Origin: Desulfotignum sp.
Lineage (GTDB): Bacteria; Desulfobacterota; Desulfobacteria; Desulfobacterales; Desulfobacteraceae
Direction: 5' to 3'
Assembly: GCA_018399285.1 (NCBI GenBank)
Contig: JAGYOW010000007.1
Location: forward strand, 1 to 64,000
Length of the DNA: 64,000 nucleotides
Part shown: positions 47,845 to 64,000 of the stretch, piece by piece
Layout: every line of letters begins with the position of its first letter
Position numbering within the stretch: the first letter of the stretch is position 1
Notes under the pieces: generated by a model
Seen by the model: the letters and a program-made list of their open reading frames with translations, nothing else
What the model was told of the DNA's origin: nothing
The model's database searches: none
Translations under genes and position numbers: made by a program

Positions 47845-48738
47845 TTACATCAACCGTTCTAATTTCATGGCAGGATGCGTCATCACGGTTTCCCAGATGT
47901 TTCTGACCGCTTTGGCAGCCGGGCAGGTATCATCATATTCCAACAGCGTCTGAATCTGGATCATGGCTTTGGTAAAGACCGGATCAAAAGGAATTTTCCC
48001 TGCCACCAGAATATTTTTTTCCCGGGCAATGGTTTCGATGGCCCGGGTCTGGTCCAGGTTCAGATCAAATTTATTGATGCACACCATGGCCGGGATCTTG
48101 AAGTGGGCTGCCAGTTCCCCCACCCGTTTCATGTCATGGATACCCGACACCGTGGGTTCTGCCACGATGAGAATGGCACTGGCCTGGCCGATGCTGGCAA
48201 TGACCGGGCATCCGATACCCGGAGGCCCGTCCGTGAGAATCAAATCAATGTGTGCGTCTCTGGCCCGTTTTTTGGCCTGTTCCCTTACTAAGGCCACCAG
48301 CCGGCCGGAATTTTCTTCTGCAATGCCTAACCGGGCATGGACCATGGGACCGAATCGGGTATGGGACACAAACCACTGGCCGCAGGTTTTCGGGGGAAAG
48401 TCAATGGCGGATTCCGGGCACATGTCCACACAGACACCGCAGCCTTCACAGTTCAAGGCATCCACGGTATATTCTCCCTGATTTTCATCAATGGCATCGA
48501 ACCGGCACAGTTCCAGACACGTTCCGCAGCCGGTACAACGGTCCGGAGCGATGACCGCCTCATTGCCGCCCACAAAATCATGGGTTTCCTGAACATCCGG
48601 GGCCATAATCAGGTGCAGGTCGGCTGCATCCACATCAGCATCACAGAGCATCAATGAGGACTCAAGCCCTGCAAATGCGGCAGTCAGGCTGGTTTTGCCA
48701 GTGCCGCCTTTTCCACTCAATATCACCAGCTCTTTCAT
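47845..48738 (-). CDS. MinD/Mrp-type ATPase with inserted ferredoxin domain 2
   Basis: The 297-residue P-loop ATPase starts with the deviant Walker A motif SGKGGTGKTS. An inserted 2[4Fe-4S] ferredoxin follows (about 60-110: CTGCGTCLELC, CEGCGVCVDMCP), and later LILTDGPPGIGCPVIAS. Such proteins bind and move iron-sulfur or molybdenum clusters in ORP-type operons. Its ATG overlaps the stop of the other ATPase gene (ATGA), so the two are probably made as a pair. Confidence 0.92.
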   Translation of the reverse strand: MKELVILSGKGGTGKTSLTAAFAGLESSLMLCDADVDAADLHLIMAPDVQETHDFVGGNEAVIAPDRCTGCGTCLELCRFDAIDENQGEYTVDALNCEGCGVCVDMCPESAIDFPPKTCGQWFVSHTRFGPMVHARLGIAEENSGRLVALVREQAKKRARDAHIDLILTDGPPGIGCPVIASIGQASAILIVAEPTVSGIHDMKRVGELAAHFKIPAMVCINKFDLNLDQTRAIETIAREKNILVAGKIPFDPVFTKAMIQIQTLLEYDDTCPAAKAVRNIWETVMTHPAMKLERLM

Positions 48739-49598
48739 GGGGCACACTTTTCTGAATCTGCCAGAAAGCAGATTTTTTTGTAAAGGGTTTGAAATTTTTC
48801 TTTGTAATCTTCCTGCTGTGAGATGATCAGATCGCCTTTGGAATAGGCCTGGGCAATGGCCTTGTCATAGGGGATTTCCATGAGAACCGGCAGGTTTTTA
48901 TCTTTGGCATAGGCATATACGGCATCATCTCCCATTCCGGCCCGGTTGATGATCAGGCCGTGGGGAATATTCAGCAGCCGCACCGTTTCCACAGCCAGTT
49001 TCAGGTCATTGAGTCCGAATGGGGTGGGTTCTGTGACCAGAATGACAAAATCAGTGTCTTTCATGGCGGCGATGACCGGACATGATGTGCCGGGCGGGGC
49101 GTCGATCAAGGTGATACCCTGATCCGGGGCCCGGTGGGATTTCACCTGGCGGATCACGGGCGGGACCATGACCTGGCCGATGTCCAGCAATCCCTGGCCA
49201 AAATTCATGTCCGGCAGCGGCACGGTGCCGGTTTCCACGGTGCCTAAAATCCGTTCTTTTTCAGTGACGGCATTTTCCGGACAGATGACCGTGCACCCGC
49301 CGCAGGAATGGCACAGTTCAGGAAACGTGACCACGGTGTTTGCCGTGACTGCAATGGCATTGAACCGGCAGATGTCCATACATTTTTTGCAGAACGTGCA
49401 CCGGTCCAGATCGATTTCCGGCACAGGTGCAATCACTTTTTCCCGGGATTGGATTTCCGGGTGCAAAAATAAATGGAGGTTGGGTTCTTCCACATCACAA
49501 TCCAGCACCGTGACCGGCTGATTCAATGAAGCGGCCAGATTGGCGGCAACCGTTGTCTTTCCGGTACCGCCTTTTCCGCTTGCAATGCTGATGATCAT
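48735..49598 (-). CDS. MinD/Mrp-type ATPase with inserted ferredoxin domain 1
   Basis: The 287-residue protein has the Walker A motif ASGKGGTGKTT, an inserted ferredoxin (about 65-115: CTFCKKCMDIC and CHSCGGCTVICP) and LIDAPPGTSCPVIAAM. The two ATPases are only moderately alike. They correspond to the paired ATPases of the Desulfovibrio ORP operon, a cluster-assembly and cell-division-linked complex. Confidence 0.92.
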   Translation of the reverse strand: MIISIASGKGGTGKTTVAANLAASLNQPVTVLDCDVEEPNLHLFLHPEIQSREKVIAPVPEIDLDRCTFCKKCMDICRFNAIAVTANTVVTFPELCHSCGGCTVICPENAVTEKERILGTVETGTVPLPDMNFGQGLLDIGQVMVPPVIRQVKSHRAPDQGITLIDAPPGTSCPVIAAMKDTDFVILVTEPTPFGLNDLKLAVETVRLLNIPHGLIINRAGMGDDAVYAYAKDKNLPVLMEIPYDKAIAQAYSKGDLIISQQEDYKEKFQTLYKKICFLADSEKCAP

Positions 49599-49612: not shown

Positions 49613-50002
49613 TTAAATTACAATTAGGTTCAGTTTTTTCAAGATGGCCACCAGTTTTTCTCCGGATTCAGCATCCGGGGCCGGTGGCAGCTGCATGAGT
49701 ACGCCATATCCTTCATACGTCTCATGAAATTCATCTGCAGATAACGTGCTGACGGCAACACAGCTGGTCATGGGACTTGTCATGATCACTTGTTCCACCA
49801 GTTCCCGGCCGGTCATGTCTGCCAGGGTTTCGTCCGTGATCACCAGATCAATTTTTTTCCCTTTGTCCCCGGCCCGGGAGATGCGTTCCAAAACGGATTT
49901 CCCCGTGTCGGTCCACTGAATATCCATTGGAGACTGCTGTAACACCCCTGCCATTTTTTCAAATGTCTGTTTGTCTTTTGCCGCCAGTACCGCGTATATC
50001 AT
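49613..50002 (-). CDS. Degenerate receiver-like protein
   Basis: The 129-residue protein has the length and strand pattern of a receiver domain. The candidate phosphorylation Asp is in DLVITDETLADMTG, with a Ser/Thr near VAVSTLS. The acidic pair near the N terminus (IYAVLAAKDK) and the final Lys-Pro are missing. It may be a pseudo-receiver used for protein contact. It is the first gene of the minus-strand operon, directly behind a sigma-54 promoter. Confidence 0.65.
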   Translation of the reverse strand: MIYAVLAAKDKQTFEKMAGVLQQSPMDIQWTDTGKSVLERISRAGDKGKKIDLVITDETLADMTGRELVEQVIMTSPMTSCVAVSTLSADEFHETYEGYGVLMQLPPAPDAESGEKLVAILKKLNLIVI

Positions 50003-50342: not shown

Positions 50343-50401
50343 TCAACCTAATAGTTCATTGTAACATATTTGATAGATCCTGAGCTAAGGGAGGTGTCTT
50401 G

Positions 50402-51700
50402 ATGTCAGATCCCAGCAAGCGTCCGGCGGATACGGGATCTGCCCGTGTCGGAATACAGGAAAACAGGCAGCTGTACCCCAAAAATTCATGGACGATCCTG
50501 GTGATCGACGATGAACCCGATGTGCGGGATGTCATGGTCATCAGCCTGGAAGATGCCGGTTACAGGACCCTTTCCGCGCCGGACGGTGAAACGGGTCTCA
50601 GGCTGCTGGAAACCCGGGCACCTCAGATCCTTATCACGGATATCAAGATGCCGGGCATGAGCGGCCTGGAAGTGTTGAAAAAAGCCCACCTGATCCGGCC
50701 TGAAACCCAGGTGATCGTCACCACGGGATTTGCAGACATCAAAAAAGCGATCACCGCGTTGCAGTACGATGCGTCTGATTTCATCACCAAACCCGTGGAC
50801 GACACCACGTTGCACCTGGCCTTGAAGCGGGCCATGGAACGATATCAAAATCAGAAAGAACTGGCGGATTATACGCGGCTTCTGGAACAGACCGTCCTGA
50901 ATCAGGAAAAGATTCTGCACCAGGAAAAAATGATGTCTTTAGGCCGCCTGGCCGCCAGTATGGTCCATGAGATCAACAACCCGCTGTCCGGGATTCTGAA
51001 TTATATCACGCTGATGATCCGGCTGGTGGAAAAACCGGGGTGGGACGGGGCCGGTCAAAACCGTTTTAAAGAGTATCTGACCATTATTCATCAGGAAACC
51101 CGGCGGTGCGCTGATCTGGTTTCCGGACTGCTGCAGTTTTCCAGAAAATCCAGCCTTCAATTCAAGCCCGTGGATATCTGCGAGCTCATCGAGTACAGCC
51201 GGATGCTTTGCAACCACAGGCTGGAACTGGCGGATATCGTTTTTAAAATTACCTGTGATCCGACAATTCCAAAGGTGTCGGGCGATATCAACCAATTGCA
51301 GCAATGTGTGATCAATCTGATTTTCAATGCCATTGACGCGATTGAAGGAAAGCATCCGGCAGCATCGGACAGTATGAAGGAACCTTCTCTCACGGCCCGG
51401 CCGGCGGGACGGATCCGGATCAAGGCAGATATCGAGCATGCGGATCATCAGGCATGTATCCGGGTGTCGGATGACGGCAAAGGCATTCTTCCCGAGGATC
51501 TGCCCCGCATTTTTGAGCCGTTTTTTACCACCAAACAGGACGGTCACGGTGTGGGCTTAGGCTTGTCCACGGTGTACGGCATCATTGAACACCACAACGG
51601 CACCATTAGCGTGGACAGTGAGCCGGGACAGGGAACCTGTTTCACCATCCGATTGCCTGCGTTAGATGAAACCACAAAAACAAAGGAATCAAATTCATGA
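50402..51700 (+). CDS. Receiver-histidine kinase hybrid (cytoplasmic)
   Basis: The 432-residue soluble protein has an N-terminal receiver (about 31-150: VIDDEPD, phosphorylated Asp80 in LITDIKMPGMSG, Lys-Pro in FITKPVDD), a coiled linker, the HisKA dimerisation motif with His189 (AASMVHEINNPLSGIL) and an HATPase domain (VSDDGKGILPEDL, GVGLGLSTVYGI). It has no sensor domain of its own, so it probably relays signals from another kinase, such as the haem kinase at 61203. It overlaps the start of the HdrA gene by four bases. Confidence 0.92.
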   Translation: MSDPSKRPADTGSARVGIQENRQLYPKNSWTILVIDDEPDVRDVMVISLEDAGYRTLSAPDGETGLRLLETRAPQILITDIKMPGMSGLEVLKKAHLIRPETQVIVTTGFADIKKAITALQYDASDFITKPVDDTTLHLALKRAMERYQNQKELADYTRLLEQTVLNQEKILHQEKMMSLGRLAASMVHEINNPLSGILNYITLMIRLVEKPGWDGAGQNRFKEYLTIIHQETRRCADLVSGLLQFSRKSSLQFKPVDICELIEYSRMLCNHRLELADIVFKITCDPTIPKVSGDINQLQQCVINLIFNAIDAIEGKHPAASDSMKEPSLTARPAGRIRIKADIEHADHQACIRVSDDGKGILPEDLPRIFEPFFTTKQDGHGVGLGLSTVYGIIEHHNGTISVDSEPGQGTCFTIRLPALDETTKTKESNS

Positions 51701-54700
51701 TACCTGACTATTTGCCAGTACGTGTGGGGGTTTATATCTGTCACTGCGGCGTGAACATCGCCGGAAAAGTGGATGTGGCAGATGTCAGTGAATGGGCCGG
51801 ATCCCTGCCCCATGTGGTCGTTTCCAGGGACTACAAATTCATGTGTTCCGAGCCGGGTCAGGCCATGATAGAAACAGACATCAAAGAATATGGACTGAAC
51901 CGGGTGGTGGTGGCGTCCTGTTCCCCGAGGCTGCATGGGAAAACCTTTATGGAAACCTGCCGGAGAGCCGGGATCAATCCGTATTATTTTAACATGGCTT
52001 CGGTCAGAGAACAGGTGTCCTGGGTGACCAGAGACCGGGACCGGGCCACCCGCAAGGCCCGGCGCCTGGTGGCGGCGGCTGTGAGCCGGGTGGCCTTTCA
52101 TCAGCCGTTGACCACGGGCCTGTCCAAGGTGCATCCGGATGTGGCCGTCATCGGCGGGGGCATTGCCGGGATGCAGGCAGCCATCGATATCGGCAATGCC
52201 GGGCTTACGGTGCATCTCATTGAAAAAGACAGCACCATCGGCGGGCACATGCTCCAGTTTGACAAAACCTTTCCCACCCTGGACTGTGCCGCCTGCATCG
52301 GTACGCCCAAGATGGTGGAGGTGGCCCAGAACTCAAATATCGATCTGCACACCTTCAGCCGGGTGACGGAAGTGACCGGGTTTGTCGGCAATTACACGTT
52401 GGATATCACGGAAAAACCCCGGTATGTGAATGCGGATCTGTGCACGGGATGCGGCGAGTGCGCCACGGTGTGTCCCGTGTCCATTCCCAGTGACTGGGAC
52501 ATGGGACTGTCGAACCGAAAAGCCATTGGCAGAAGTTTTCCCCAGGCCATTCCAATTACGTTTCAGATTGAAAAAAATCAGACCGCGCCGTGTACCCGGA
52601 CCTGTCCGGCCGGCATCAATGTCCAGGGATATGTGCAGCTGGCCAAACAGGAAAAATATGATCAGGCCCTGGCATTGATCATGGAAAAGGCCCCGTTTCC
52701 CGGGGTCTTAGGCCGGGTGTGCCCCCATCCCTGCGAAACGGCCTGTGCCCGGGGAGAAACAGACAAACCCGTGGCCATCCGCCTGCTCAAACGATATGTG
52801 TCCGACATGGCCGGGCCGGATGCCCGACAGATCCCGGACATTGTTGACAAAGAAGAAAAAATCGCGGTGATCGGGGCCGGACCGGCCGGGCTGACGGCGG
52901 CCTATTTTCTGCGGCTGAAAGGCTACCAGGTCAAGGTATTCGAGGCCTCCGACCAGGCCGGTGGCATGCTTCGGACCGGCATCCCTGCGTACCGTCTGCC
53001 CCGGGATGTGCTGGATCAGGAAATCCAGCACATCTTGGACCATGGCATCGACCTGAAACTGAATGCCTGCCTGGGAAAAGAGGTGGATCTGGCAGGTTTG
53101 AAAGAACAGGGCTTTTGTGCCTTTTACCTGTCCACGGGGGCCCATCGCTCCCTGAAACTGGGCCTGGAAGGCGAAGACACTTTTTCCGGGGTCATGGACG
53201 CGACCGCGTTTTTAAGACAGATCAATCTGGGAGAAGACACGGCCTGTCACGGCAAGGTCCTGGTGGTGGGCGGCGGCAATGTGGCGATGGATGCGGCCCG
53301 GTGCGCCCGGCGGATTCCCGGATGCGAGGTGACCCTGGTCTACCGCCGCACCCGGGAAGAGATGCCGGCCTATGCCGATGAAATTCAAGGGGCCCTCCAG
53401 GAAGGGATCACCATTTTAGAATTGGCCAGTCCGGTCCGGCTGGAAGTGGATCAGGGAAAGCTCACACAGGTGGTGTGTCTGAAAAATGAACTGGGACCGC
53501 CGGATGCTTCCGGACGGCGGCGGCCCGTGCCCGTGGAAGGATCGGAATTTGTCCTGCCCTGTGACACCCTGATCCCGGCCATCGGCCAGTATCCGGATGA
53601 CCTGGGAATGGATGGGCTGCCCGGGATCGAGATCACGGGCCGAAATCGGGTCAAGGTGGATGGCATCACCTTTCAGACCGGTGAACCCGGCGTGTTTGCC
53701 GGTGGAGACCTGGTCCTGGGGCCGGCCACCGTGGTCCAGGCTGTCGGCCAGGGCCGTGCCGCAGCTAACTATATCCATGAATTTATCCAGGACCCGGCCC
53801 GGTTTGAACCGGGGGCCGATACGGGCATGGCGGATACATCCGTCACCGGACCTGCGGACATCACGGGGGCTGACTGGAACACGGCTGACGGGGCAGCGCC
53901 TTTGTCTGAAAACAGATCCGAAAACAGGTTCGAAAAAAGCACTGACAAAAGGGCTTTGAACGCTTTTACATCAGAGCCTTCGGGTGCCGTCCCCCGGGCC
54001 GAACCGGCCTGGATGGACCCGGATCAACGGATTTCAGGGTTTGACGAGGTGGAAGCCTGCCTCACCCCGGACCAGGCCCTGGCAGAAGCGGGCCGGTGTC
54101 TTAACTGCGGGATCTGCTGCGAGTGTAAAGCGTGTGTGGCCGCCTGCGAACGGGATGCCATTAACCATGACATGAAAGAAAAACACTATCAGATCCAGGC
54201 GGGCAGCATCATTCTGGCCACAGGCTATGACACCCTGGACCCGACGGCCATGACCCGGTTCGGTTACGGCCGGTACCCCAATGTGTACACGGCCCTGGAG
54301 TTCGAGCGCTTAAGCAATGCCACGGGCCCCACGGGCGGACAGATCCTGATGCGCGACCATGACCGGACATTCACACGGCCTCCAAGGTCCGTGGCCATTG
54401 TGCATTGTGTGGGGAGCCGGGATGTGAATTTCCATGAATACTGCTCCCGGGTCTGCTGTATGTATGCGTTGAAATACACCCACCTGATCAAGGAGAAAGT
54501 GGGCCATGACACAAAGGTGTATGATTTTTATATTGATATGCGCTGTTTCGGCAAAGGGTATGAAGAGTTTTACAACCGGTGCCAGCAGGAGGGGACCGTT
54601 TTCATCCGGGGCAAGGTGGCCCGGATCACGCATCAACCCGGGGCTGACGGGGATTCGGAAACACTGGTGGCCGTGGCCGAAGATACCCTGATGGGAGAGG

Positions 54701-55215
54701 TGATTGAAGTGCCCGTGGACATGGTGGTGTTGTGTACGGCCATCCAGGCCCGACAGGATGCGGGAGAGATCGGCCATGTCCTGGGGCTCAACCAGGGGGC
54801 GGACGGGTTTTTCCTGGAGGAACATCCCAAACTCGGGCCCGTGAATACATCCACGGAAGGCGTATTTTTAAGCGGGTGCTGCCAGAAACCCATGGACATT
54901 CCGGACACGGTGTCCCAGGCATCCGGCGCTGCGGCCAAGTCCTTGTCCCTGGCGTCAAGGGGTCAGGTGGAGATTTCTCCCACTGTGGCCAGCATTGATC
55001 CGGATATCTGTGCCGGATGTCAATTGTGTCTGGTGCTGTGCCCCTATGGGGCCATTGAATTTGATGAAGACCGGCAGGTGTCCGTGGTCAATGAAGCCGT
55101 GTGCAAAGGATGTGGTTCCTGTTCCGGGGCCTGTCCCAGCGGTGCAGCCGTGAGCCGTCATTTTACCCGAAAACAGATGTTTGCCGAAATCAGCGGTGTG
55201 CTGGCGGAATTGTGA
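51697..55215 (+). CDS. hdrA: HdrA-type flavoprotein with inserted GltD/NfnB-like NAD(P)H oxidoreductase
   Basis: The 1172-residue protein is a heterodisulfide-reductase HdrA cut by a large insert. HdrA N-terminal domain (1-145); FAD loop VIGGGIAGMQA (151-161); FPTLDCAAC (192-200); ferredoxin CTGCGECATVCP (249-260). Then a complete GltD/NfnB-like module (about 288-700): Fe-S domain Cys (299-350), FAD loop VIGAGPAGLTAAY (391-403), nucleotide loop VVGGGNVAMDAARCARR. A poorly conserved linker (700-770) leads to a second ferredoxin (801-817), the HdrA C-half (IVHCVGSRDV, CSRVCCMYALK) and a C-terminal double ferredoxin (1105-1148). It likely takes electrons from NAD(P)H and bifurcates them. Confidence 0.93.
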   Translation: MIPDYLPVRVGVYICHCGVNIAGKVDVADVSEWAGSLPHVVVSRDYKFMCSEPGQAMIETDIKEYGLNRVVVASCSPRLHGKTFMETCRRAGINPYYFNMASVREQVSWVTRDRDRATRKARRLVAAAVSRVAFHQPLTTGLSKVHPDVAVIGGGIAGMQAAIDIGNAGLTVHLIEKDSTIGGHMLQFDKTFPTLDCAACIGTPKMVEVAQNSNIDLHTFSRVTEVTGFVGNYTLDITEKPRYVNADLCTGCGECATVCPVSIPSDWDMGLSNRKAIGRSFPQAIPITFQIEKNQTAPCTRTCPAGINVQGYVQLAKQEKYDQALALIMEKAPFPGVLGRVCPHPCETACARGETDKPVAIRLLKRYVSDMAGPDARQIPDIVDKEEKIAVIGAGPAGLTAAYFLRLKGYQVKVFEASDQAGGMLRTGIPAYRLPRDVLDQEIQHILDHGIDLKLNACLGKEVDLAGLKEQGFCAFYLSTGAHRSLKLGLEGEDTFSGVMDATAFLRQINLGEDTACHGKVLVVGGGNVAMDAARCARRIPGCEVTLVYRRTREEMPAYADEIQGALQEGITILELASPVRLEVDQGKLTQVVCLKNELGPPDASGRRRPVPVEGSEFVLPCDTLIPAIGQYPDDLGMDGLPGIEITGRNRVKVDGITFQTGEPGVFAGGDLVLGPATVVQAVGQGRAAANYIHEFIQDPARFEPGADTGMADTSVTGPADITGADWNTADGAAPLSENRSENRFEKSTDKRALNAFTSEPSGAVPRAEPAWMDPDQRISGFDEVEACLTPDQALAEAGRCLNCGICCECKACVAACERDAINHDMKEKHYQIQAGSIILATGYDTLDPTAMTRFGYGRYPNVYTALEFERLSNATGPTGGQILMRDHDRTFTRPPRSVAIVHCVGSRDVNFHEYCSRVCCMYALKYTHLIKEKVGHDTKVYDFYIDMRCFGKGYEEFYNRCQQEGTVFIRGKVARITHQPGADGDSETLVAVAEDTLMGEVIEVPVDMVVLCTAIQARQDAGEIGHVLGLNQGADGFFLEEHPKLGPVNTSTEGVFLSGCCQKPMDIPDTVSQASGAAAKSLSLASRGQVEISPTVASIDPDICAGCQLCLVLCPYGAIEFDEDRQVSVVNEAVCKGCGSCSGACPSGAAVSRHFTRKQMFAEISGVLAEL

Positions 55216-55293: not shown

Positions 55294-55776
55294 ATGACCC
55301 AGACCGTAATGGAACCATCACAGGCATCACCCGCTAAAAATCCATCTTTGGCCGGAGATGCGTTCGAACCCGTGCTCATTGCATTTGTGTGCAACTGGTG
55401 CACCTACACGGCCGCGGACCTGGCCGGTACCTCCCGTCTGACCTATCCGGACAATGTCAGACTGGTGCGGGTCATGTGTACGGGCATGGTGGATCCCCAG
55501 TACGTGATCAAGGCGTTTCTGGAAGGGGCCGATGCCGTGCTGGTATCCGGGTGTCATCCAGGAGACTGCCACTATATCAATGGGAATTATAAAGCCCGGC
55601 GCAGGATTTTGTTGCTGAAACAGATTCTGCCCCGATTCGGCATCGATGCGAAAAGGCTTCGGCTGACCTGGATCGGGGCCAGCGACGGGATCGAATTCGC
55701 CCAGACCATGACCCGGTTTGTGAAAGATATCAAAGAGATAGGGCCGTGTCAGGCCCGGCTGCAACCGGTCATCTGA
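55294..55776 (+). CDS. mvhD: MvhD-like iron-sulfur subunit
   Basis: The 160-residue protein matches MvhD, the small [2Fe-2S] protein that links hydrogenase, formate dehydrogenase or NAD(P)H modules to HdrA. The Cys motifs are FVCNWCTYTAADLAG, RVMCTGMVDP and SGCHPGDCHY. AGGAGG lies before the ATG. It sits 78 bases after the HdrA gene. Confidence 0.94.
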   Translation: MTQTVMEPSQASPAKNPSLAGDAFEPVLIAFVCNWCTYTAADLAGTSRLTYPDNVRLVRVMCTGMVDPQYVIKAFLEGADAVLVSGCHPGDCHYINGNYKARRRILLLKQILPRFGIDAKRLRLTWIGASDGIEFAQTMTRFVKDIKEIGPCQARLQPVI

Positions 55777-55814
55777 ACACCAGGCACCCATTGTCCAATA
55801 CGACAGGAGAAATT

Positions 55815-56975
55815 ATGATTGCATCCATTCAAACCAAAAACCAGTCCATCACCCGGACCCTTCAGGATTTTTTTGCCGACCTGCTTAAAACCGGGGCCGT
55901 GGATGCCGTGCTGGTGCCGTCCCGGATTTCAAAATCCCCATATGTCAAACCCTGCCTGATCACTTCTGCCGATCAGATGGACCAGACCGTCCCGTTGGGG
56001 CCGGGCTTTTTTGTCAATGCCGGCCCCATGGTGTCCCGGCTGACCCGGACAAGGGCCGATGCCACCATCGGGGTGTGGCTTCGTCCCTGTGAAGTCCGGG
56101 CCTTTGTGGAACTGACCAAACTCAGACAGGGGGGCAGACAAGATGTAATTATTTTGAGCATGGACTGCCCCATGGCCCTGTCCCGCAAAGACTATGAAGA
56201 CTGGGCAGCCCAGGGGGAAGGGGGACTCGGGGATGTGGATAAATGGATTCACACCGTGTATCAGAAACCCGTGACAAAAGCGGATGCATGGCCCGTGGCC
56301 CGGGCATGTCAAGTGTGCGAAAGCCCTTATCCCGTGAACGCGGATGTGTCTGTGATGCTTATGGGCGCAGACCTGGACAAAGAGATCCCGGTGCGGGCCG
56401 ACACTGAAAAAGGAGAAAAACTGCTGGCCGCACTGGACCTGACAGACAATGGCCAGGAACCGGCACAGCGCAAAGCCATGCTGGCGGATCTGACGGCGGA
56501 CCGCACCGCAGCATTTCAGGCCATGGACGAGGAAATGCTCGTCCGGACCGGCAGCATTGACGCGTTGAACCGATTTTTCAGCGCCTGCGTCAACTGCTAC
56601 AACTGCCGGAGCGTGTGCCCGGTCTGTTATTGCAAGGAATGTGTGTTCAACACGGATGCCGTGGCATACGCTCCGGCCCAGTACCTTTCCTGGGCCGACA
56701 AATGGGGTCAGGTCCCGATGCCCAATGATACCGTGTTTTTTCACCTGACCCGCCTGGCCCATATCGGGTGCACCTGTGTGGGGTGCGGCCAGTGCACCCT
56801 GGCCTGCCCCAGTCAGATTCCCGTGGCCGACCTGTTCATCAGTGTCACCCGGAACGTCCGGAAGGCCTTTGACTATGTCCCGGGCAGGGATGATGCGGAA
56901 GCGCTGCCCCTGTCTGTGTTTCAGGAATCGGAATTTACCGATATCGTGGGAATGGGAAACAAGGAGGTCACATGA
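55815..56975 (+). CDS. FrhB/FdhB-like iron-sulfur flavoprotein
   Basis: The 386-residue protein resembles the beta subunit of F420-reducing hydrogenase and the FdhB-like proteins seen beside HdrA-MvhD. It shows WLRPCEVRAFVEL and two Fe-S motifs: CVNCYNCRSVCPVCYCKEC (258-276) and CTCVGCGQCTLACP (319-332). No formate dehydrogenase or hydrogenase large subunit is encoded near it, so its electron partner is unclear. The ATG at 55815 follows AGGAGAAATT. It overlaps the next HdrA gene by four bases. Confidence 0.85.
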   Translation: MIASIQTKNQSITRTLQDFFADLLKTGAVDAVLVPSRISKSPYVKPCLITSADQMDQTVPLGPGFFVNAGPMVSRLTRTRADATIGVWLRPCEVRAFVELTKLRQGGRQDVIILSMDCPMALSRKDYEDWAAQGEGGLGDVDKWIHTVYQKPVTKADAWPVARACQVCESPYPVNADVSVMLMGADLDKEIPVRADTEKGEKLLAALDLTDNGQEPAQRKAMLADLTADRTAAFQAMDEEMLVRTGSIDALNRFFSACVNCYNCRSVCPVCYCKECVFNTDAVAYAPAQYLSWADKWGQVPMPNDTVFFHLTRLAHIGCTCVGCGQCTLACPSQIPVADLFISVTRNVRKAFDYVPGRDDAEALPLSVFQESEFTDIVGMGNKEVT

Positions 56976-59782
56976 CAGATCAAATCGGCAAAACCCTGGT
57001 GATCGGCGGCGGTATTTCAGGGATCCGGGCATCCCTGGATCTGGCCCAGGCCGGCTTTCAGGTGATTTTGATGGAACAGGCGGACCGGGTGGGAGGACTC
57101 TTGTCCCAGCTGGACACCCAGTTTCCCACCTCCACCTGCGGCATGTGCCGGATGCTGCCCATGATGGACCGGGATCATGTGGACCCCCAGTGCCTGCGCC
57201 GGGGGCTTGCCCATGACAACATCGAGATCTGTGTGTCCACGGACCTGATCTCCCTGACAGGGGAGCCGGGTCATTTCACGGTGTCTTTCATCGCTCAAAC
57301 GGATGGGGGCCGGCAGGAATGCCCCGTGCTGGTGGTGGATGATGAAAAAATCGTCAGAGATTCCATGAAGGAATGGCTCAGGGAAGAAGGATATCCGGTT
57401 CAGACGGCAGAGTCAGCGGCCACGGCCCTGGAACTTCTTAAAACAGGGAATTTCAAGGCAATGCTCACGGACATCAAAATGCCGGGTATGGACGGGGTGA
57501 CCCTGTTGACCCGGGCCAAAGAGATCCAGCCGGACCTGGCCGTGGTGATGATGACGGCATATGCGGCCGTGGACACGGCCGTGGAAGCCATGAAACAGGG
57601 TGCGCTTGATTATCTGGTCAAACCCTTTGATCCGGATGCCGTGCTTTTGATGGTGGACCGCATCTATAAAGATGCCGTGGCCCAAAATGCCCGGATCGAT
57701 ACGGTGGATGCCGTGATACTGGCAACCGGGGCCACTTTTTTTCACCCGGACCAGGGTATCAACGCTTATGGATACGGCCGGATTCCCGGCGTGGTCACCA
57801 ACCTGGAGTTTGAACGCATGCTCAGCCATGCCGGCCCGGGGGGCATGGATCTGACGCATCCTGTGACGGGCCGGCCCGTGACCCGGATCGCCTGGTTTCA
57901 ATGTGTGGGGTCCAGAGATATCCAGACCGGCACCCCGTTTTGTTCTGCCACCTGCTGCATGATTTCCGTCAAGCAGAGCCTGCTGGCGAAAACCATGTAT
58001 CCTCATGTGACTGAGGCCTGTGTGTTTTATATGGATCTGCGCACATGGGGCAAGGCATCGGATGCATATGCCCGGCAGGCGGAAGCGGCGGGAGTCCGGT
58101 TTGTCCGGGCCCGGGTCCATTCACTGGCCCCGGGCCTAAAAGAACCGGACGGGGCCATTCCGGTGGTGTGGATGGACCCGTCCGGAGAGCGGAACCAATC
58201 TTTGTTCGATCTGGTGGTCCTGGCCCCGGGACAGCATCCGGATGCGTTTCTGACCGGGTTTGTCAAAGACCAGGAACTGACTGCAGATGACTGGGGATTT
58301 GTCCGGCCGGAACCTTTTTTACCCGCACACACCAGCCGGCCGGGGATCTTTGCCTGCGGCAGTGCCACCGGACCCAAAGATATTCACGATTCCGTGACCG
58401 GGGCCACAGCGGCAGCCCTGTCTGCCATGCAGGTGATGGCCGGGGCCGGCCGGCATCTGGTTCAGAATTCAGAACAGACGGAATCGCCGGTCCAGCAGGC
58501 GGCTGGCATATCTCTTTTCCCCGGAGCCCTGGTCATCGGCGGAGGAATCGCCGGCATGACCGCAGCGCTGGCCATTGCAGATCAGGGGTTTGAAGTGGAT
58601 CTGGTGGAAAAAACCGATCATTTGGGGGGAAATCTGGTGTGGCTTAAGAAAGGCATCCAGGGGGCGGACGATTTTCTGGAACAGCAGATGGCCGCGGTCC
58701 AGGCCCATGACCGGATTCGGATTCACACCCGCAACTGTGCGGCAGAAACAACGGGCCGTCCCGGCCGATGGATCACCCGGCTGACACCGGTTGAGGACGC
58801 TGTGGACCAGTCTGCCGGAGTCCCGGTCCGGCACGGGGTGGTGGTGCTGGCCGTGGGCGGTGTCGAAGCCGGGCCTGACGCGCCGGAACCGGATCAGAAA
58901 TCCGGCTTTTATACCCAGCAGCAGTTTCAACAGCTCCTGGACGGCAATGACATCGATTCAGGTTCGCCCCTTCAGGTGGCCCTGTTTCAATGCCACGGCA
59001 GCCGGGAACCCGGCCGGGAATATTGTTCCCGGGTCTGCTGTCCCCGGTCCCTGGACCAGGCCATGCAATTGAAATCCCTGAATCCCGACACCCGGGTGGT
59101 GATTTTTTACCGGGACATGATGACGCCGGGCCTGACCGAGGCCGACTATACGGAAGCCAGAAAAAAAGGGGTGGTGTTTGTGCCCTATGAGCCCGGGAAT
59201 GCACCCAACCTGGCTGCGGAGGATACCGGGTGCAAAGTGACCTGGACCGACCCGATTCTGGGGCGGGCCATGGAAATGGATGCAGATTACGTGATTTTGG
59301 CCAAAGGCATCCGGTCCGGACTGTCCAAGGATCTGGCACACATGTTCGAAGCCGACCTGGACGGGTCCGGATTTTTTGACCAGGCCGATATCAAGTGGCG
59401 GCCCGTGGAAGCCATGGATCCCCGGGTGCTGGCCTGCGGCATCTGCCTGGAACCCGGAAGTCTGGCCCTGACCCTGGCCTCAGCCCGGGCTGCGGCCGCC
59501 AAAGCAGTATCCCTGCTGGGCCGGCAGACCTTTTTCCCGAGTCAGGACACGGCCCGGGTCAGAAGCGCGTTCTGCAGCCTGTGCCGGATCTGTATTGACG
59601 CGTGCCCGTTCAATGCCCGGTTCATCGATCCGGAAACCCGCACACTGAAGGTGGATCCCCTGGCCTGCCAGGGATGCGGGATCTGTGCGGCTGCCTGTCC
59701 CTCCGGGGCTGCCGTGGTGGCGGGCCGGTCTCTGGCACCCATGATGAAAACCATTCATGCCGCGTTAAACGCGCCGTTATAA
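56972..59782 (+). CDS. hdrA: Double HdrA-type flavoprotein with an inserted phospho-receiver domain
   Basis: The 936-residue protein has two HdrA-like flavin modules. Module 1: FAD loop VIGGGISGIRA (10-20) and FPTSTCGMC (51-59). At about 118-240 a complete response-regulator receiver stands where HdrA normally holds its internal ferredoxin: VVDDEK (Asp123/124), Asp167 in LTDIKMPGMDG, Thr195 in MMTAYA, Lys217 in LVKPFDP. The HdrA sequence resumes at AVILATG. Module 2 starts with VIGGGIAGMTA (521-531). The C terminus has two ferredoxin motifs (CSLCRICIDACP, CQGCGICAAACP). All receiver key residues are present, so phosphorylation could control electron flow. Confidence 0.94.
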   Translation: MTDQIGKTLVIGGGISGIRASLDLAQAGFQVILMEQADRVGGLLSQLDTQFPTSTCGMCRMLPMMDRDHVDPQCLRRGLAHDNIEICVSTDLISLTGEPGHFTVSFIAQTDGGRQECPVLVVDDEKIVRDSMKEWLREEGYPVQTAESAATALELLKTGNFKAMLTDIKMPGMDGVTLLTRAKEIQPDLAVVMMTAYAAVDTAVEAMKQGALDYLVKPFDPDAVLLMVDRIYKDAVAQNARIDTVDAVILATGATFFHPDQGINAYGYGRIPGVVTNLEFERMLSHAGPGGMDLTHPVTGRPVTRIAWFQCVGSRDIQTGTPFCSATCCMISVKQSLLAKTMYPHVTEACVFYMDLRTWGKASDAYARQAEAAGVRFVRARVHSLAPGLKEPDGAIPVVWMDPSGERNQSLFDLVVLAPGQHPDAFLTGFVKDQELTADDWGFVRPEPFLPAHTSRPGIFACGSATGPKDIHDSVTGATAAALSAMQVMAGAGRHLVQNSEQTESPVQQAAGISLFPGALVIGGGIAGMTAALAIADQGFEVDLVEKTDHLGGNLVWLKKGIQGADDFLEQQMAAVQAHDRIRIHTRNCAAETTGRPGRWITRLTPVEDAVDQSAGVPVRHGVVVLAVGGVEAGPDAPEPDQKSGFYTQQQFQQLLDGNDIDSGSPLQVALFQCHGSREPGREYCSRVCCPRSLDQAMQLKSLNPDTRVVIFYRDMMTPGLTEADYTEARKKGVVFVPYEPGNAPNLAAEDTGCKVTWTDPILGRAMEMDADYVILAKGIRSGLSKDLAHMFEADLDGSGFFDQADIKWRPVEAMDPRVLACGICLEPGSLALTLASARAAAAKAVSLLGRQTFFPSQDTARVRSAFCSLCRICIDACPFNARFIDPETRTLKVDPLACQGCGICAAACPSGAAVVAGRSLAPMMKTIHAALNAPL

Positions 59783-59792
59783 AGGAGTGAGT

Positions 59793-60362
59793 ATGCACCT
59801 GACAGACATACGCGAAAAACTGGCGGCCCGGCCGGACCTGACCCGGCACCTGGCGCAGGTCAAGGAACAGATGGCCACCTGCATCCAGTGCGGGACCTGT
59901 TCGAGCTCCTGTCCCAATGCCGGATTCATGGATATGACGCCCCGGCGCATGTGGCGGGCCGTGCTGACGGACCGGGTGGACATGGTTTTTTCCAGCCAGA
60001 CGTTCATGCTGTGTGCCAGCTGTTATGTGTGTACCCTGCGCTGCCCCCGGGGACTGCCTTTGACCGATGCCATGGCCGAACTCAAGCAGGTGGCGTTTGC
60101 CCTGGACCTGGATCGGTTCAGGCGGTCCACGCGGTTTTATCGGGCATTTATGGACAATATCCGTCAATACGGCCGGGTCCGGGAAACCGAAATGATGGCC
60201 CGGTATTTTCTGGCGGTCAAAGACCCCCGGGTGCCCATGTCATACACGGGCATGGGCATCAAGCTCATGGCTAAACACAAACTGCACCCGCATTTTCCCA
60301 CCCTGGGACCGGGCCGGCTGGGGCCGCTGTTTGAACGGGCAACGCAACAACAGGAGCAATGA
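59793..60362 (+). CDS. hdrC: Heterodisulfide reductase subunit C-like protein
   Basis: The 189-residue protein has two 4Fe-4S motifs, CIQCGTCSSSCP (30-41) and CASCYVCTLRCP (74-85), as in HdrC. It carries electrons from HdrA to HdrB. No membrane helix is predicted. Start 59793 has AAAGGAG five bases upstream; the nearby GTG at 59787 is less likely. Confidence 0.93.
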   Translation: MHLTDIREKLAARPDLTRHLAQVKEQMATCIQCGTCSSSCPNAGFMDMTPRRMWRAVLTDRVDMVFSSQTFMLCASCYVCTLRCPRGLPLTDAMAELKQVAFALDLDRFRRSTRFYRAFMDNIRQYGRVRETEMMARYFLAVKDPRVPMSYTGMGIKLMAKHKLHPHFPTLGPGRLGPLFERATQQQEQ

Positions 60363-60363
60363 C

Positions 60364-61206
60364 ATGGACTATCTGTATTATCCGGGCTGCTCCCTGGAAG
60401 GCACAGCCAACGAATATGATCTTTCCTGCCGGGAACTGTTCAAGGCCCTGGGGGATTGCCTGACCGACATCCCGGACTGGACCTGCTGCGGGGCCACAGC
60501 AGCCCAGTGCGTGGACGCGTTTCTTTCCGTGGTGCTGCCGGCCCGGAATCTGGCCCTGGCGGAAAAAACCGATACCGGCCTGGATGTGCTGGTCCCGTGC
60601 AGCGCCTGTTACCTGAACCTGAAAAAAGCCCGGCAGGATCTGCTGGAAAACAGTGCCCTGCAGGCTCGGGTGAACCAGGTGCTGGCGCCGGACGAACTGG
60701 CGGTTAACGCCTCCGTGCGGGTCCGGCATCTCCTGGATGTGCTGAGCCGGGACGGGGCCGTGGACCGGGTGGCCGAACTGGCGGAAAATCGCATGAAAGG
60801 GTTCGTGGTTGCGCCATATTACGGATGTCAGTGTCTGCGGCCTTTTGCGGAGTTCGATGACCCGGAACAGCCCCGGTCCATGGATGCCCTGATCCGGGCC
60901 ACGGGCGCGGATGTGCTGGCATGGGACATGGGAGGGGTGTGTTGCGGGGCTTCCACGGCCACCACCAAACCCCAGGTGGGAAAGGAACTGGTGGGCCGGA
61001 TTCTGGATCAGGCAGGGGATGCCCATGCCGTGGTGACCGTGTGCCCCATGTGCCAGATGAACCTGGAGCGGTTCCAGCCCCGGCCCGTGCCGGTCCTGTA
61101 TCTGCCGCAGTTTTTAGGGTTGGCCCTGGGACTGTCCGGCAAGTCTCTGGGCTGTGACATGAATCTGTCCGATATCAAACCGGTGCTGTCCCGGGTGGCT
61201 TCATGA
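60364..61206 (+). CDS. hdrB: Heterodisulfide reductase subunit B-like protein
   Basis: The 280-residue protein has both CCG domains of HdrB. The first has CSLEG..., CCGAT (41-43) and CSACYL (79-82); the second has YYGCQCLRP (155-157), GVCCGAS (193-194) and CPMCQM. These Cys bind the two non-cubane 4Fe-4S clusters that reduce a disulfide. The physiological disulfide in sulfate reducers is not known (DsrC is a candidate). It overlaps the kinase gene by four bases. Confidence 0.94.
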   Translation: MDYLYYPGCSLEGTANEYDLSCRELFKALGDCLTDIPDWTCCGATAAQCVDAFLSVVLPARNLALAEKTDTGLDVLVPCSACYLNLKKARQDLLENSALQARVNQVLAPDELAVNASVRVRHLLDVLSRDGAVDRVAELAENRMKGFVVAPYYGCQCLRPFAEFDDPEQPRSMDALIRATGADVLAWDMGGVCCGASTATTKPQVGKELVGRILDQAGDAHAVVTVCPMCQMNLERFQPRPVPVLYLPQFLGLALGLSGKSLGCDMNLSDIKPVLSRVAS

Positions 61207-63503
61207 ACCATTTGTTGAATTATTTCCGGCACAGCCTGGTGTTCCGGCTCATTTTCATTGTCAGCCTGACAGTGGTTCTGTCCATTTCGTTGTGGGCCTT
61301 TGTCAATGTCAGAAATTTCAAGGCCCGGAACATGGAAAACCATATCGCGTCAACGGACCGGCTGAGCAATTCCATCAAACTGGGGACCCATTATGCCATG
61401 ATGCTCAATTCCCGGGACGACATCAACCAGATCATCAACAATATCGCCCGCCAGCCCGGGATTGAAAACATCCGCATCTACAACAAGGAAGGCCAGATCA
61501 AATTCACCAATCAGCCCCATGAGGTGGAGCAGTTTGTGGATATCAAGGCCGTGGCCTGTGATATCTGCCATAAAAAGGATCCCGCACCCTCAACAATCTC
61601 TCTTAAGGAACGGACCCGGATCATTCAGTCTTCGGAAGGACACCGGCTTTTGGGCATTGTGCAGCCCATCCGCAATGACCCGGGGTGCGCCACCAGTGAC
61701 TGCCATTTTCATTCTAAAGATCAGACCATTTTAGGGGCACTGGATGTGGTGGTGTCCTTGAAAGAAACCGATGCCCAGGTGGTGAAAATGGAACAAGGGG
61801 TTTTCAGCCTGGCGTTTTTCACGATTCTGATCACCTCGGTCATCATTTTTTTCACCACGTTGTTTTTTGTGAAAAAACCCATCATCAAGCTGGTGGAAGG
61901 CACCCGCCGGATTGCCAGCGGTGATTACGAGGCAGACATCGATATCGGCCGGGCCCATGAAATTCAGCCCTTAGGCAAAGCGATCCAGCAGATGGGCAAA
62001 AAAATCGGAGCCCATCAGGCAGCCCTCAAAAAACAGAAAAACGAATACCAGGCATTGTTTGACAATGCCCCGTGCATGATCGCGGTGCAGGATAAAAATT
62101 TCCGGCTGATCCAGTACAACCGGGCGTTCAAGGAACGGTTCGATCCCCGGCCCGGTGATTACTGCTATTCGGTTTATAAAGGGCTGGATCATCAATGCCC
62201 GGACTGCCCCGTGGAAAAAACTTTTGCCGACGGCCAGTCCCACTACGGGGAGACGGAAGGGGTCGGCCGCAAGGGCCAGAAAAAGCACTGGATCTTCATC
62301 ACCGCGCCCATGCGGGATGAAAACGGTGACATTGTGGCAGGCATGGAAATGAGCATCGACATCACCCAGCGCAGACACCTGGAACAGGATTTGAAAAAAT
62401 CGGAAGAAAAATACCACGCCATTTTCAACAATATTTTCAATCCTGTATTTGTGGTGGACCAGGAATCACTTGAAATTCTGGACTGCAATATCAAAGCCGT
62501 GGACCTGTATCATGCCGGCGGAAAAAACCTGACGGGAAAATTGTTCAGTGATTTTTTCCCTCGAGAGGATCAGGCGCACATGATCCGTCAGGTGAAATCC
62601 AAAAAAGAGATCTCCAAAGTCCAGCATATCAAGGCGGACGGCAGAAAAATCGATGTGGACATGTGGGTGGCCCCGGCGGAATACTCGGGTCAGAACGTGT
62701 TTCTGATCACCATCAATGACATCACCCTGCGTCTGGAAACCGAGCAGCACCTGCTCCATGCCAGCAAAATGGCCACTTTGGGCGAGATGTCCACGGGCAT
62801 CGCCCATGAGTTGAATCAGCCCTTGTCGGTCATTAAATCTTCGGCCAGTTTCTGCCTGCGAAAGATTCATAATCAGGAGTCTATTTCAGAAGAGATTTTC
62901 CACAAACTGATCGGAAAAATCGACATCAATGTGGACCGGGCCGACAAAATCATCCAGCACATGCGCCAGTTTGCCAGAAAATCCGATATCAGGCTGGTGA
63001 GAACCCGGATCAATGACGTGATCCAGCAGACCTTTGACATGCTCAATCAGCAGTTGAAAATCCGGGGGATCCAGGTATTATGGGAGAAGAACGATGCGTT
63101 GCCCGAGATCCAGGCGGACCCGGACCGCCTGGAACAGGTTTTCATCAACCTGGTGATGAATGCCAAGGATGCCATTGAAGCCAAATGGGAGGCCCGGGGA
63201 AGCGGTGATGACGGCAAAGACCGGATTATGATCCATACGTTTGTGGCCAATGACAAGGTGGTTGTTCAGGTGAGCGACACAGGCATCGGAATCCGGAAAG
63301 AGGCAAAAGACCGTTTGTTTGAACCGTTTTTCACCACCAAGGAAGTAGGCAAGGGAACGGGCCTGGGCCTGTCCATCTCCTATGGGATCGTCAAGGACTG
63401 CAAGGGAGATATTCAGGTGGACACTCCTCCGGACGGCGGCGCAAAATTCACCCTGATATTTCCGGTTCCCGAAGCAACGGACGAAGATATCGAATATGCC
63501 TGA
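61203..63503 (+). CDS. Membrane sensor kinase with c-type haem motifs and two PAS domains
   Basis: The 766-residue kinase has a first membrane helix (about 12-33), a periplasmic domain (34-200), a second helix (201-223), HAMP, PAS 1 (285-390, with Cys pair CPDC), PAS 2 (402-510), the dimerisation motif [10 protein letters not shown] (His535) and HATPase ([28 protein letters not shown]). The periplasmic domain has CDICH (119-123) and CATSDCH (162-168), a CXXCH and a CX4CH haem site. It should sense redox state or a gas. Its gene overlaps hdrB (ATGA), so sensor and enzyme are co-translated. Confidence 0.9.
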
Positions 63504-63515
63504 AAGGAGGCGTTC

Positions 63516-64000
63516 ATGGACAAGACACCCTTCACCATTCTGATCGTGGACGATGAAGAAGATATCAGAGAGGTGCTTGAGATCGCGCTCATGGACATGG
63601 GGCATGAAGTGCTTTTGGCCCCGGACGGGAAAAAAGCCCTGGAACTGTTTGAAGACCATCATCCGTCCATTGTGATCACGGATATCAAAATGCCGGTCAT
63701 GGGCGGTATTGAACTGCTCAAACAGGTGAAACGCCGATCTCCGGACACGCAGGTGATCATGATCACCGGACACGGGGACATGGATCTCACCATTGACAGC
63801 CTGAAATTCGGGGCCACGGATTTCATTACCAAACCCGTGAACGTGGACATCCTGGAAATAGCTGTGACCAAGGCCGTGGATCAGCTCATTGCCCAGCAGA
63901 AACTGGTGGAATATACCCAGAAACTGGAACTGCTGGTGCTGGAAAAATCCAAACTCACGGATCATTTATCCTCTTTAGGCCTGATGCTGGGCACGGTATC
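63516..64000 (+). CDS. Response regulator (possibly receiver-kinase hybrid), cut by the window end
   Basis: The visible 161 residues hold a receiver domain: LIVDDEED, phosphorylated Asp in VITDIKMPVMGG, Thr in MITGHGD, Lys-Pro in ITKPVNVD. It continues into a helical region similar to that of the hybrid at 50402, so a kinase part may follow. AAAGGAGG precedes the ATG, 12 bases after the haem-kinase stop. It is the obvious partner of that kinase. Confidence 0.88.
   Translation, partial: MDKTPFTILIVDDEEDIREVLEIALMDMGHEVLLAPDGKKALELFEDHHPSIVITDIKMPVMGGIELLKQVKRRSPDTQVIMITGHGDMDLTIDSLKFGATDFITKPVNVDILEIAVTKAVDQLIAQQKLVEYTQKLELLVLEKSKLTDHLSSLGLMLGTV

Follow-up and report, generated by a model that had tools for sequence, protein, structure and literature searches.

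A CheY-type receiver domain embedded in an HdrA-like flavoprotein of the Desulfobacterales

We analysed a 64,000-nucleotide stretch of DNA from Desulfotignum sp. (contig JAGYOW010000007.1, positions 1 to 64,000, hereafter the window) and found that it encodes a double HdrA-like flavoprotein whose first half contains an embedded, complete CheY-type phospho-receiver. This protein, designated REC-HdrA, is encoded in an Hdr-type operon next to kinase genes, and the fusion is conserved in many sulfate reducers of the order. Because the phospho-receiver is built into the enzyme, a signalling pathway may act directly on HdrA. The reading that we favour, and hold with moderate confidence, is that phosphorylation of the receiver would gate the flow of electrons through HdrA.

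The Pfam Response_reg profile matched residues 119–228 of REC-HdrA (E 2.6e-30, 105.3 bits for a cut-off of 30.2), and the acid pair (D123 and D124), the phospho-acceptor D167, T195 and K217 are all present. The receiver is flanked by the motifs HFTV (residues 101–104) and AVILATG (residues 247–253). On both points these data agree with the first-pass annotation of this DNA, which had described a complete receiver with all key residues between these two motifs of an HdrA. Pfam also matched flavin-binding models as well as a 4Fe-4S dicluster domain at the C terminus, and the segments matched by the NCBIfam HdrA2 and HdrA models fall outside the receiver, the best HdrA2 segment being 244–490. In an alignment of the window protein with 36 relatives, the residues of the HdrA core, that is the flavin adenine dinucleotide (FAD) Rossmann fold and the C...CS..CC [4Fe-4S] motif (G12, G14, G17, C311, C324, C328, C329 and K334), are present in 37 of 37 rows, as are the eight cysteines of the C-terminal 2x[4Fe-4S] ferredoxin (C868–C909). 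When the family profile was compared with a solved HdrA structure (PDB 5odc), the ferredoxin ended at residue 313 and the flavin domain resumed at residue 318; the receiver fills this gap. AlphaFold models were fair to good overall, both for the window protein (mean predicted local distance difference test score 78.5, predicted template-modelling score 0.78) and for the Desulfosarcina alkanivorans copy (83.1 and 0.83), and HdrA was the best PDB match for both.

The pocket residues are invariant in all 37 aligned proteins, and 104 of 109 distinct receivers have an intact acid pair, aspartate, threonine and lysine; the exceptions are the pseudo-receivers of family f112 (L102–L104), one receiver with glycine for aspartate (L154) and one that is masked at the lysine (L141). 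In three pairwise comparisons within the clade of the window protein, receiver omega was 0.09, 0.13 and 0.16, which indicates purifying selection, and ranked lowest, third lowest and second lowest among five domains. The form found in the window, which has no inserted ferredoxin, occurs in six of the 13 genomes of the genus, its own included (G000, G062, G063, G064, G067 and G073). Identity of the best piece to the window copy is 96% in G062, 95% in G063, 94% in G073 and 85% in G064 and G067; the G073 and G067 copies match in two pieces with a break near residue 610, and the copies at loci L042–L044 were examined in full. A ferredoxin-containing form was detected in three further genomes (G065, G068 and G070), and the remaining four gave a partial match or none. 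Since the same form occurs in five other genomes of the genus, REC-HdrA is not an assembly chimera: the receiver is genuine, and the artefact that the first-pass annotation had named as a way in which its proposal could fail is refuted. Chance or chimeric assembly retains a negligible probability, given that the same architecture recurs across many separate genomes, some of which are complete chromosomes of isolates.

The architecture, which the first-pass annotation had suggested looking for in other genomes, was indeed found there. The flavin-ferredoxin-receiver-flavin part of the G021 copy was searched against 291 genomes of the order (E <= 1e-75) and matched in 111 of them, G000 and G021 included. 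All except three of these matches (108 of 111) span the receiver and extend into the flavin domain; those of G264 and G330 start within the receiver and that of G309 stops within it. In a phylum sample, 15 of 395 genomes matched, and eight of these lie outside the order. When named genomes were scanned with a flavin-ferredoxin alignment (A1), 326 relatives were confirmed, and the analysis retained the best 80. In 80 of these 80 loci the receiver stands at one site, directly preceded by an eight-cysteine ferredoxin; as the query itself included the ferredoxin and the set is confined to the best 80 of 326, it is biased towards ferredoxin-containing copies. Named isolates with the fusion include Desulfosarcina widdelii, D. 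alkanivorans and Desulfonema magnum.

The first-pass annotation had also proposed that the receiver occupies the site of the internal ferredoxin of the HdrA encoded at 51697 (HdrL) and takes the place of that ferredoxin. The position is right, but the ferredoxin of HdrL is not a plain one. It is split by a GltD-like domain (Pfam 296–686; NCBIfam PRK12771, best stretch 290–838, 538.9 bits for a cut-off of 516), so that the same insertion region hosts different modules in neighbouring genes. Replacement, for its part, describes the window subclade only. Between window residues 104 and 118, each of the 36 aligned relatives has exactly 73 extra residues, which contain the eight cysteines of a ferredoxin and are followed by the receiver. 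Between window residues 494 and 520 the relatives have another 126–173 residues, which form an HdrA N-terminal-type domain; all 36 carry four cysteines there. The window clade has thus been stripped of two cysteine-bearing domains in one protein and has kept the receiver.

A tree of the protein minus its receiver was built from 58 rows with a quick method, Shimodaira-Hasegawa-like approximate likelihood ratio test (SH-aLRT) supports and a midpoint root, the window protein being represented by L042 (96% identical). The ferredoxin-less L042–L044 form one clade (support 100) nested among rows that carry both ferredoxin and receiver, and this supports the polarity of ferredoxin loss. Because the relatives have an intact ferredoxin followed by the receiver, and the window clade lacks just those 73 residues, the receiver was probably added behind the ferredoxin, which was lost later; the idea that the receiver replaces the ferredoxin in general was rejected on the same grounds. 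The receiver-less proteins L061 (G059) and L236 (G060), orthologues that have kept the ferredoxin, are sister to L058 (support 100). The simplest history would be that a receiver joined the ferredoxin arm, that the ferredoxin was lost once, in the window clade, and that the receiver was lost once, in G059/G060. A second receiver-less group, L226–L231, a candidate for a receiver-less ancestor, stands on a long branch and is placed by the midpoint root only.

Bifurcating Hdr complexes handle very low-potential electrons, and HA5, the low-potential exit cluster, lies in the inserted ferredoxin of methanogen HdrA. According to passages of a study of methanogen Hdr, a mobile arm rotates so that HA3 can accept the low-potential electron and pass it on to HA5', a movement that in the authors' words seems to be conformational gating; the same passages still have electrons reach the flavin "by an unknown mechanism" (PMC12350162). 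Built in at the base of this arm, where the inserted ferredoxin of 5odc ends, the receiver would be placed to move or lock it. We propose that Asp167 would be phosphorylated by the kinases encoded nearby, namely one membrane kinase whose periplasmic sensor is c-heme-like and two soluble receiver-kinases, and that the phosphorylated receiver would change shape and so shift or lock the low-potential arm or the attached flavin domain. Electron flow from the HdrL/MvhD/FdhB-like proteins to HdrCB and ferredoxin could then be turned up or down without new protein synthesis. Because the ferredoxin of the arm is deleted in the window clade, the receiver would there act directly on the flavin domain or else on partner proteins, and the low-potential electron would leave elsewhere, for example through HdrL, or not at all. 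A bolder version, which we put forward tentatively and think rather less probable than gating as such, is an order-wide post-translational clutch on an Hdr-type bifurcating complex: the c-heme sensor kinase would read the redox state of the periplasm or membrane, the receiver in the hinge of the low-potential arm would toggle the enzyme between bifurcation and simple electron transfer within seconds, and one lineage would have exchanged its low-potential ferredoxin for permanent receiver control.

Phosphorylation could instead control assembly or docking and not catalysis, the phospho-receiver dimerising or recruiting a partner (polyferredoxin, HdrL or a dehydrogenase) so that the signal decides which complex is formed. 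This is consistent with a figure legend in which the inserted ferredoxin domain of the methanogen enzyme is the docking site for MvhB (PMC12350162), the receiver sitting on that very arm, and with the nearest relatives found for the receiver (55–60% identity), which belong to USP-receiver proteins (universal stress protein, USP) encoded beside the operon and are also non-transcriptional. The window clade, however, has no ferredoxin docking surface and yet keeps its receiver under purifying selection, and we regard this alternative as rather unlikely.

The features of REC-HdrA and of its operon are collected in Table 1. The gene order receiver-kinase, hdrL, mvhD, fdhB-like, hdrA(REC), hdrC, hdrB, membrane kinase, receiver-kinase is kept in close relatives. 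Among the kept scan loci with room upstream (n = 55), mvhD was found at 54, fdhB-like at 54 and hdrL at 52; hdrC and hdrB were found at 41 and 42 of the 60 with room downstream. Where more than 6 kb was available downstream (n = 47), an operon-like kinase was present at 44 loci and a kinase of the 61203 type at 34. No catalytic formate dehydrogenase or hydrogenase subunit was detected by Pfam among the scanned operon proteins that could accompany the FdhB/FrhB-like protein. Before its HAMP domain, the membrane kinase carries the motifs CDICH and CATSDCH, and among 48 distinct relatives CxxCH is present in 48, Cx4CH in 36 and the H-box in 48, which suggests a periplasmic sensor that would bind c-type heme.

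Table 1. Features of the REC-HdrA gene and its operon in the window.
Feature	Coordinates	Strand	Basis
Soluble receiver-HisKA-HATPase kinase, directly upstream of hdrL	50399..51700	+	Pfam, synteny
HdrL: HdrA whose internal ferredoxin is interrupted by a GltD-like NAD(P)H-oxidoreductase domain	51697..55215	+	Pfam, NCBIfam, synteny
MvhD/FlpD electron-transfer subunit	55294..55776	+	Pfam
FdhB/FrhB-like Fe-S flavoprotein	55746..56975	+	Pfam just below cut-off; conserved operon position
REC-HdrA, 936-aa tandem (double) HdrA-like flavoprotein with embedded CheY-type receiver	56972..59782	+	Open reading frame, Pfam, NCBIfam, fold
First FAD-binding part, residues 1–112	56972..57307	+	Alignment; Cys56/59/74 kept in 37/37 rows
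Approximate ferredoxin-loss junction: 73 residues (inserted 2x[4Fe-4S] ferredoxin) of all 36 aligned relatives missing	57299..57310	+	Alignment
Receiver domain, residues 113–240; phospho-acceptor D167 = codon 57470–57472	57308..57691	+	Pfam, alignment
Return to FAD domain, residues 241–500, with C311/C324/C328/C329 cluster motif	57692..58471	+	NCBIfam, profile, alignment
Second junction: 126–173 residues (HdrA N-terminal-type domain) missing relative to relatives	58463..58516	+	Alignment, profile
Second HdrA-like flavin half, residues 515–855	58514..59536	+	Pfam, NCBIfam, alignment
C-terminal 2x[4Fe-4S] ferredoxin, residues 861–913	59552..59710	+	Pfam, alignment
HdrC-like	59787..60362	+	Pfam, NCBIfam
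HdrB-like, two CCG domains	60331..61206	+	Pfam, NCBIfam
Membrane histidine kinase (HAMP, PAS, HisKA, HATPase), CxxCH + Cx4CH before HAMP	61203..63503	+	Pfam, motifs
Receiver-HATPase protein, truncated at the end of the window (381 aa in G062)	63516..64000	+	Pfam

Pfam detected no DNA-binding domain in the three kinase-type proteins of the window, the third being assessed on the complete G062 copy. The first-pass annotation had concluded that two-component signalling controls the enzyme directly and not through transcription. With a receiver inside HdrA and adjacent kinases in which no DNA-binding domain is recognised, direct control is the most economical reading, but it does not extend to all relatives as a purely non-transcriptional two-component set, an idea that was rejected because NtrC-type regulators occur at several loci.

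Several observations weigh against gating of a bifurcating HdrA by phosphorylation. REC-HdrA falls short of the curated whole-protein cut-offs of NCBIfam, with 443.1 bits for 1100 (HdrA2) and 333.8 bits for 1400 (HdrA). It has neither the inserted 2x[4Fe-4S] ferredoxin nor the HdrA N-terminal domain, which its relatives carry between the two halves. As the missing ferredoxin is the one that holds the low-potential exit cluster HA5 in methanogen HdrA, the window protein may now be incomplete as a bifurcating subunit. The operon-like kinase was not found at three of the 47 scan loci with more than 6 kb downstream (L142, L165 and L180), and at the HRM2-like locus L058 the kinases of the window were unmatched within the 18 kb around the locus, a relative being located elsewhere. 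In G059 and G060, whose HdrA has no receiver, a relative of the kinase persists at another locus (L233 and L234) beside another receiver-kinase, so that the kinase has other partners. NtrC-type DNA-binding regulators are encoded near the loci of some relatives, and the window genome itself has one NtrC-type regulator with a similar receiver on another contig. Finally, in three genomes the f112 proteins carry, at the same HdrA site, pseudo-receivers with altered acid pair and threonine, the lysine being lost in two of the three; since these pockets are broken, a receiver can persist without phosphorylation.

Two further alternatives draw on the same observations. The receiver might go unphosphorylated and serve as a structural spacer or for dimerisation, as the f112 pseudo-receivers would suggest and as would suit the window clade, in which only the receiver spans the place vacated by the ferredoxin. 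The intact pocket of nearly all other receivers and the low omega ranks reported above argue against this, and we consider it improbable. Information could also run in reverse or sideways. The receiver would then serve as a sink for phosphate or as a relay node, its dephosphorylation would vary with the redox state of the flavoprotein, and the kinases would in this way be informed of electron pressure. Of the three kinase-type proteins encoded nearby, two have receivers of their own, which is the layout of a relay, and the survival of the kinase in genomes with a receiver-less HdrA fits the same picture. The receiver, however, has no redox centre of its own and nothing links the flavin state to its pocket, which leaves this alternative a small chance. 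The idea that the kinase strictly depends on the receiver fusion was rejected, as G059/G060 keep the kinase elsewhere without a receiver.

REC-HdrA shares with methanogen HdrA of the HdrABC complex (PDB 5odc, 7bkb, 8rvu/8rvy) the FAD domain, the C...CS..CC cluster motif and the C-terminal ferredoxin, and the relatives of the window protein share the inserted ferredoxin and the N-terminal domain as well. Unlike the methanogen protein, REC-HdrA is a tandem of two flavin halves with an embedded receiver, and the window copy is devoid of the inserted ferredoxin and of the N-type domain. To our knowledge, the known control of bifurcating Hdr complexes is exerted through gene expression or partner availability. 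Locus VIII of Desulfobacterium autotrophicum HRM2 is reported to contain hdrL, fdhB, hdrA4, hdrB and hdrC (passages of PMC2702500), the same gene set as the window operon. The order hdrL-mvhD-fdhB-hdrA-hdrC-hdrB is identical in the window and in L058 of genome G058, which is presumably HRM2, with its copy as HdrA4. The G058 copy has both receiver and ferredoxin; no receiver is described for HdrA4 in the consulted passages of PMC2702500, and the window copy differs from it by the missing ferredoxin.

Response regulators with enzymatic output are known, among them receiver-thioredoxin reductase and receiver-pyruvate phosphate dikinase fusions (consulted passages of PMC5847659). Both resemble REC-HdrA in that a receiver is joined to a metabolic enzyme, and thioredoxin reductase also has the flavin fold in common with it. 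Unlike the fusions described in those passages, REC-HdrA has its receiver internally, at the ferredoxin arm of an Hdr subunit, and has kept it with the operon across the order. Receiver-enzyme fusions and HdrA are thus each known, and what would be new, as far as the partly consulted sources allow, is a receiver embedded in HdrA across an order. No report of an HdrA-receiver fusion was found in the open-licence literature, covered by titles, the starts of abstracts and passages, and the combination is apparently an old variant that has gone unrecognised.

The closest receivers found, at 55–60% identity, are encoded beside the operon in other genomes (L157:15166-16485, L181:14174-15493, L055:11525-12949 and L183:14885-16309); two of the four, L157 and L055, are USP-receiver-USP proteins by Pfam. 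Next come NtrC-type regulators, defined here as open reading frames with at least one of the two sigma-54 activator signatures searched, with 42–51% identity (about 49% for L010 and 51% for L228). Unlike REC-HdrA, these proteins have sigma-54 activator or universal stress domains as outputs. Because the nearest receivers are of these two types and the neighbouring receivers of the window are only 32% and 37% identical, the module probably derives from a receiver of the NtrC/USP type and not from the adjacent receiver-kinases.

If phosphorylation does gate REC-HdrA, electron branching in an order of sulfate reducers would be directly switchable by a sensor kinase. Asp167, with BeF3-, would offer a natural handle by which a bifurcating flavoenzyme could be trapped in two states, and the ferredoxin-less clade would be a natural deletion experiment.

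Some related loci show other arrangements. L142 (Desulfonema magnum) is the barest locus seen, with hdrA(REC)-hdrC-hdrB and no match to hdrL, mvhD, fdhB-like or kinase within 20.5 kb. At the f112 loci L239, L240 and L241 (G625, G733 and G397), the pseudo-receiver HdrA is paired with an HdrA without the GltD insert. Sister Hdr operons without the fusion (L226, L227, L228 and L232) have a stand-alone receiver of 120–131 aa, a related kinase and a receiver-kinase nearby. In the window itself, a weak receiver (29.5 bits, just below the Pfam cut-off) is encoded at 49613-50002 on the minus strand and adjoins two ferredoxin-bearing NUBPL/MinD-type ATPases (47845-49598, minus strand); this receiver and the ATPases are retained in the relatives L127 and L168.

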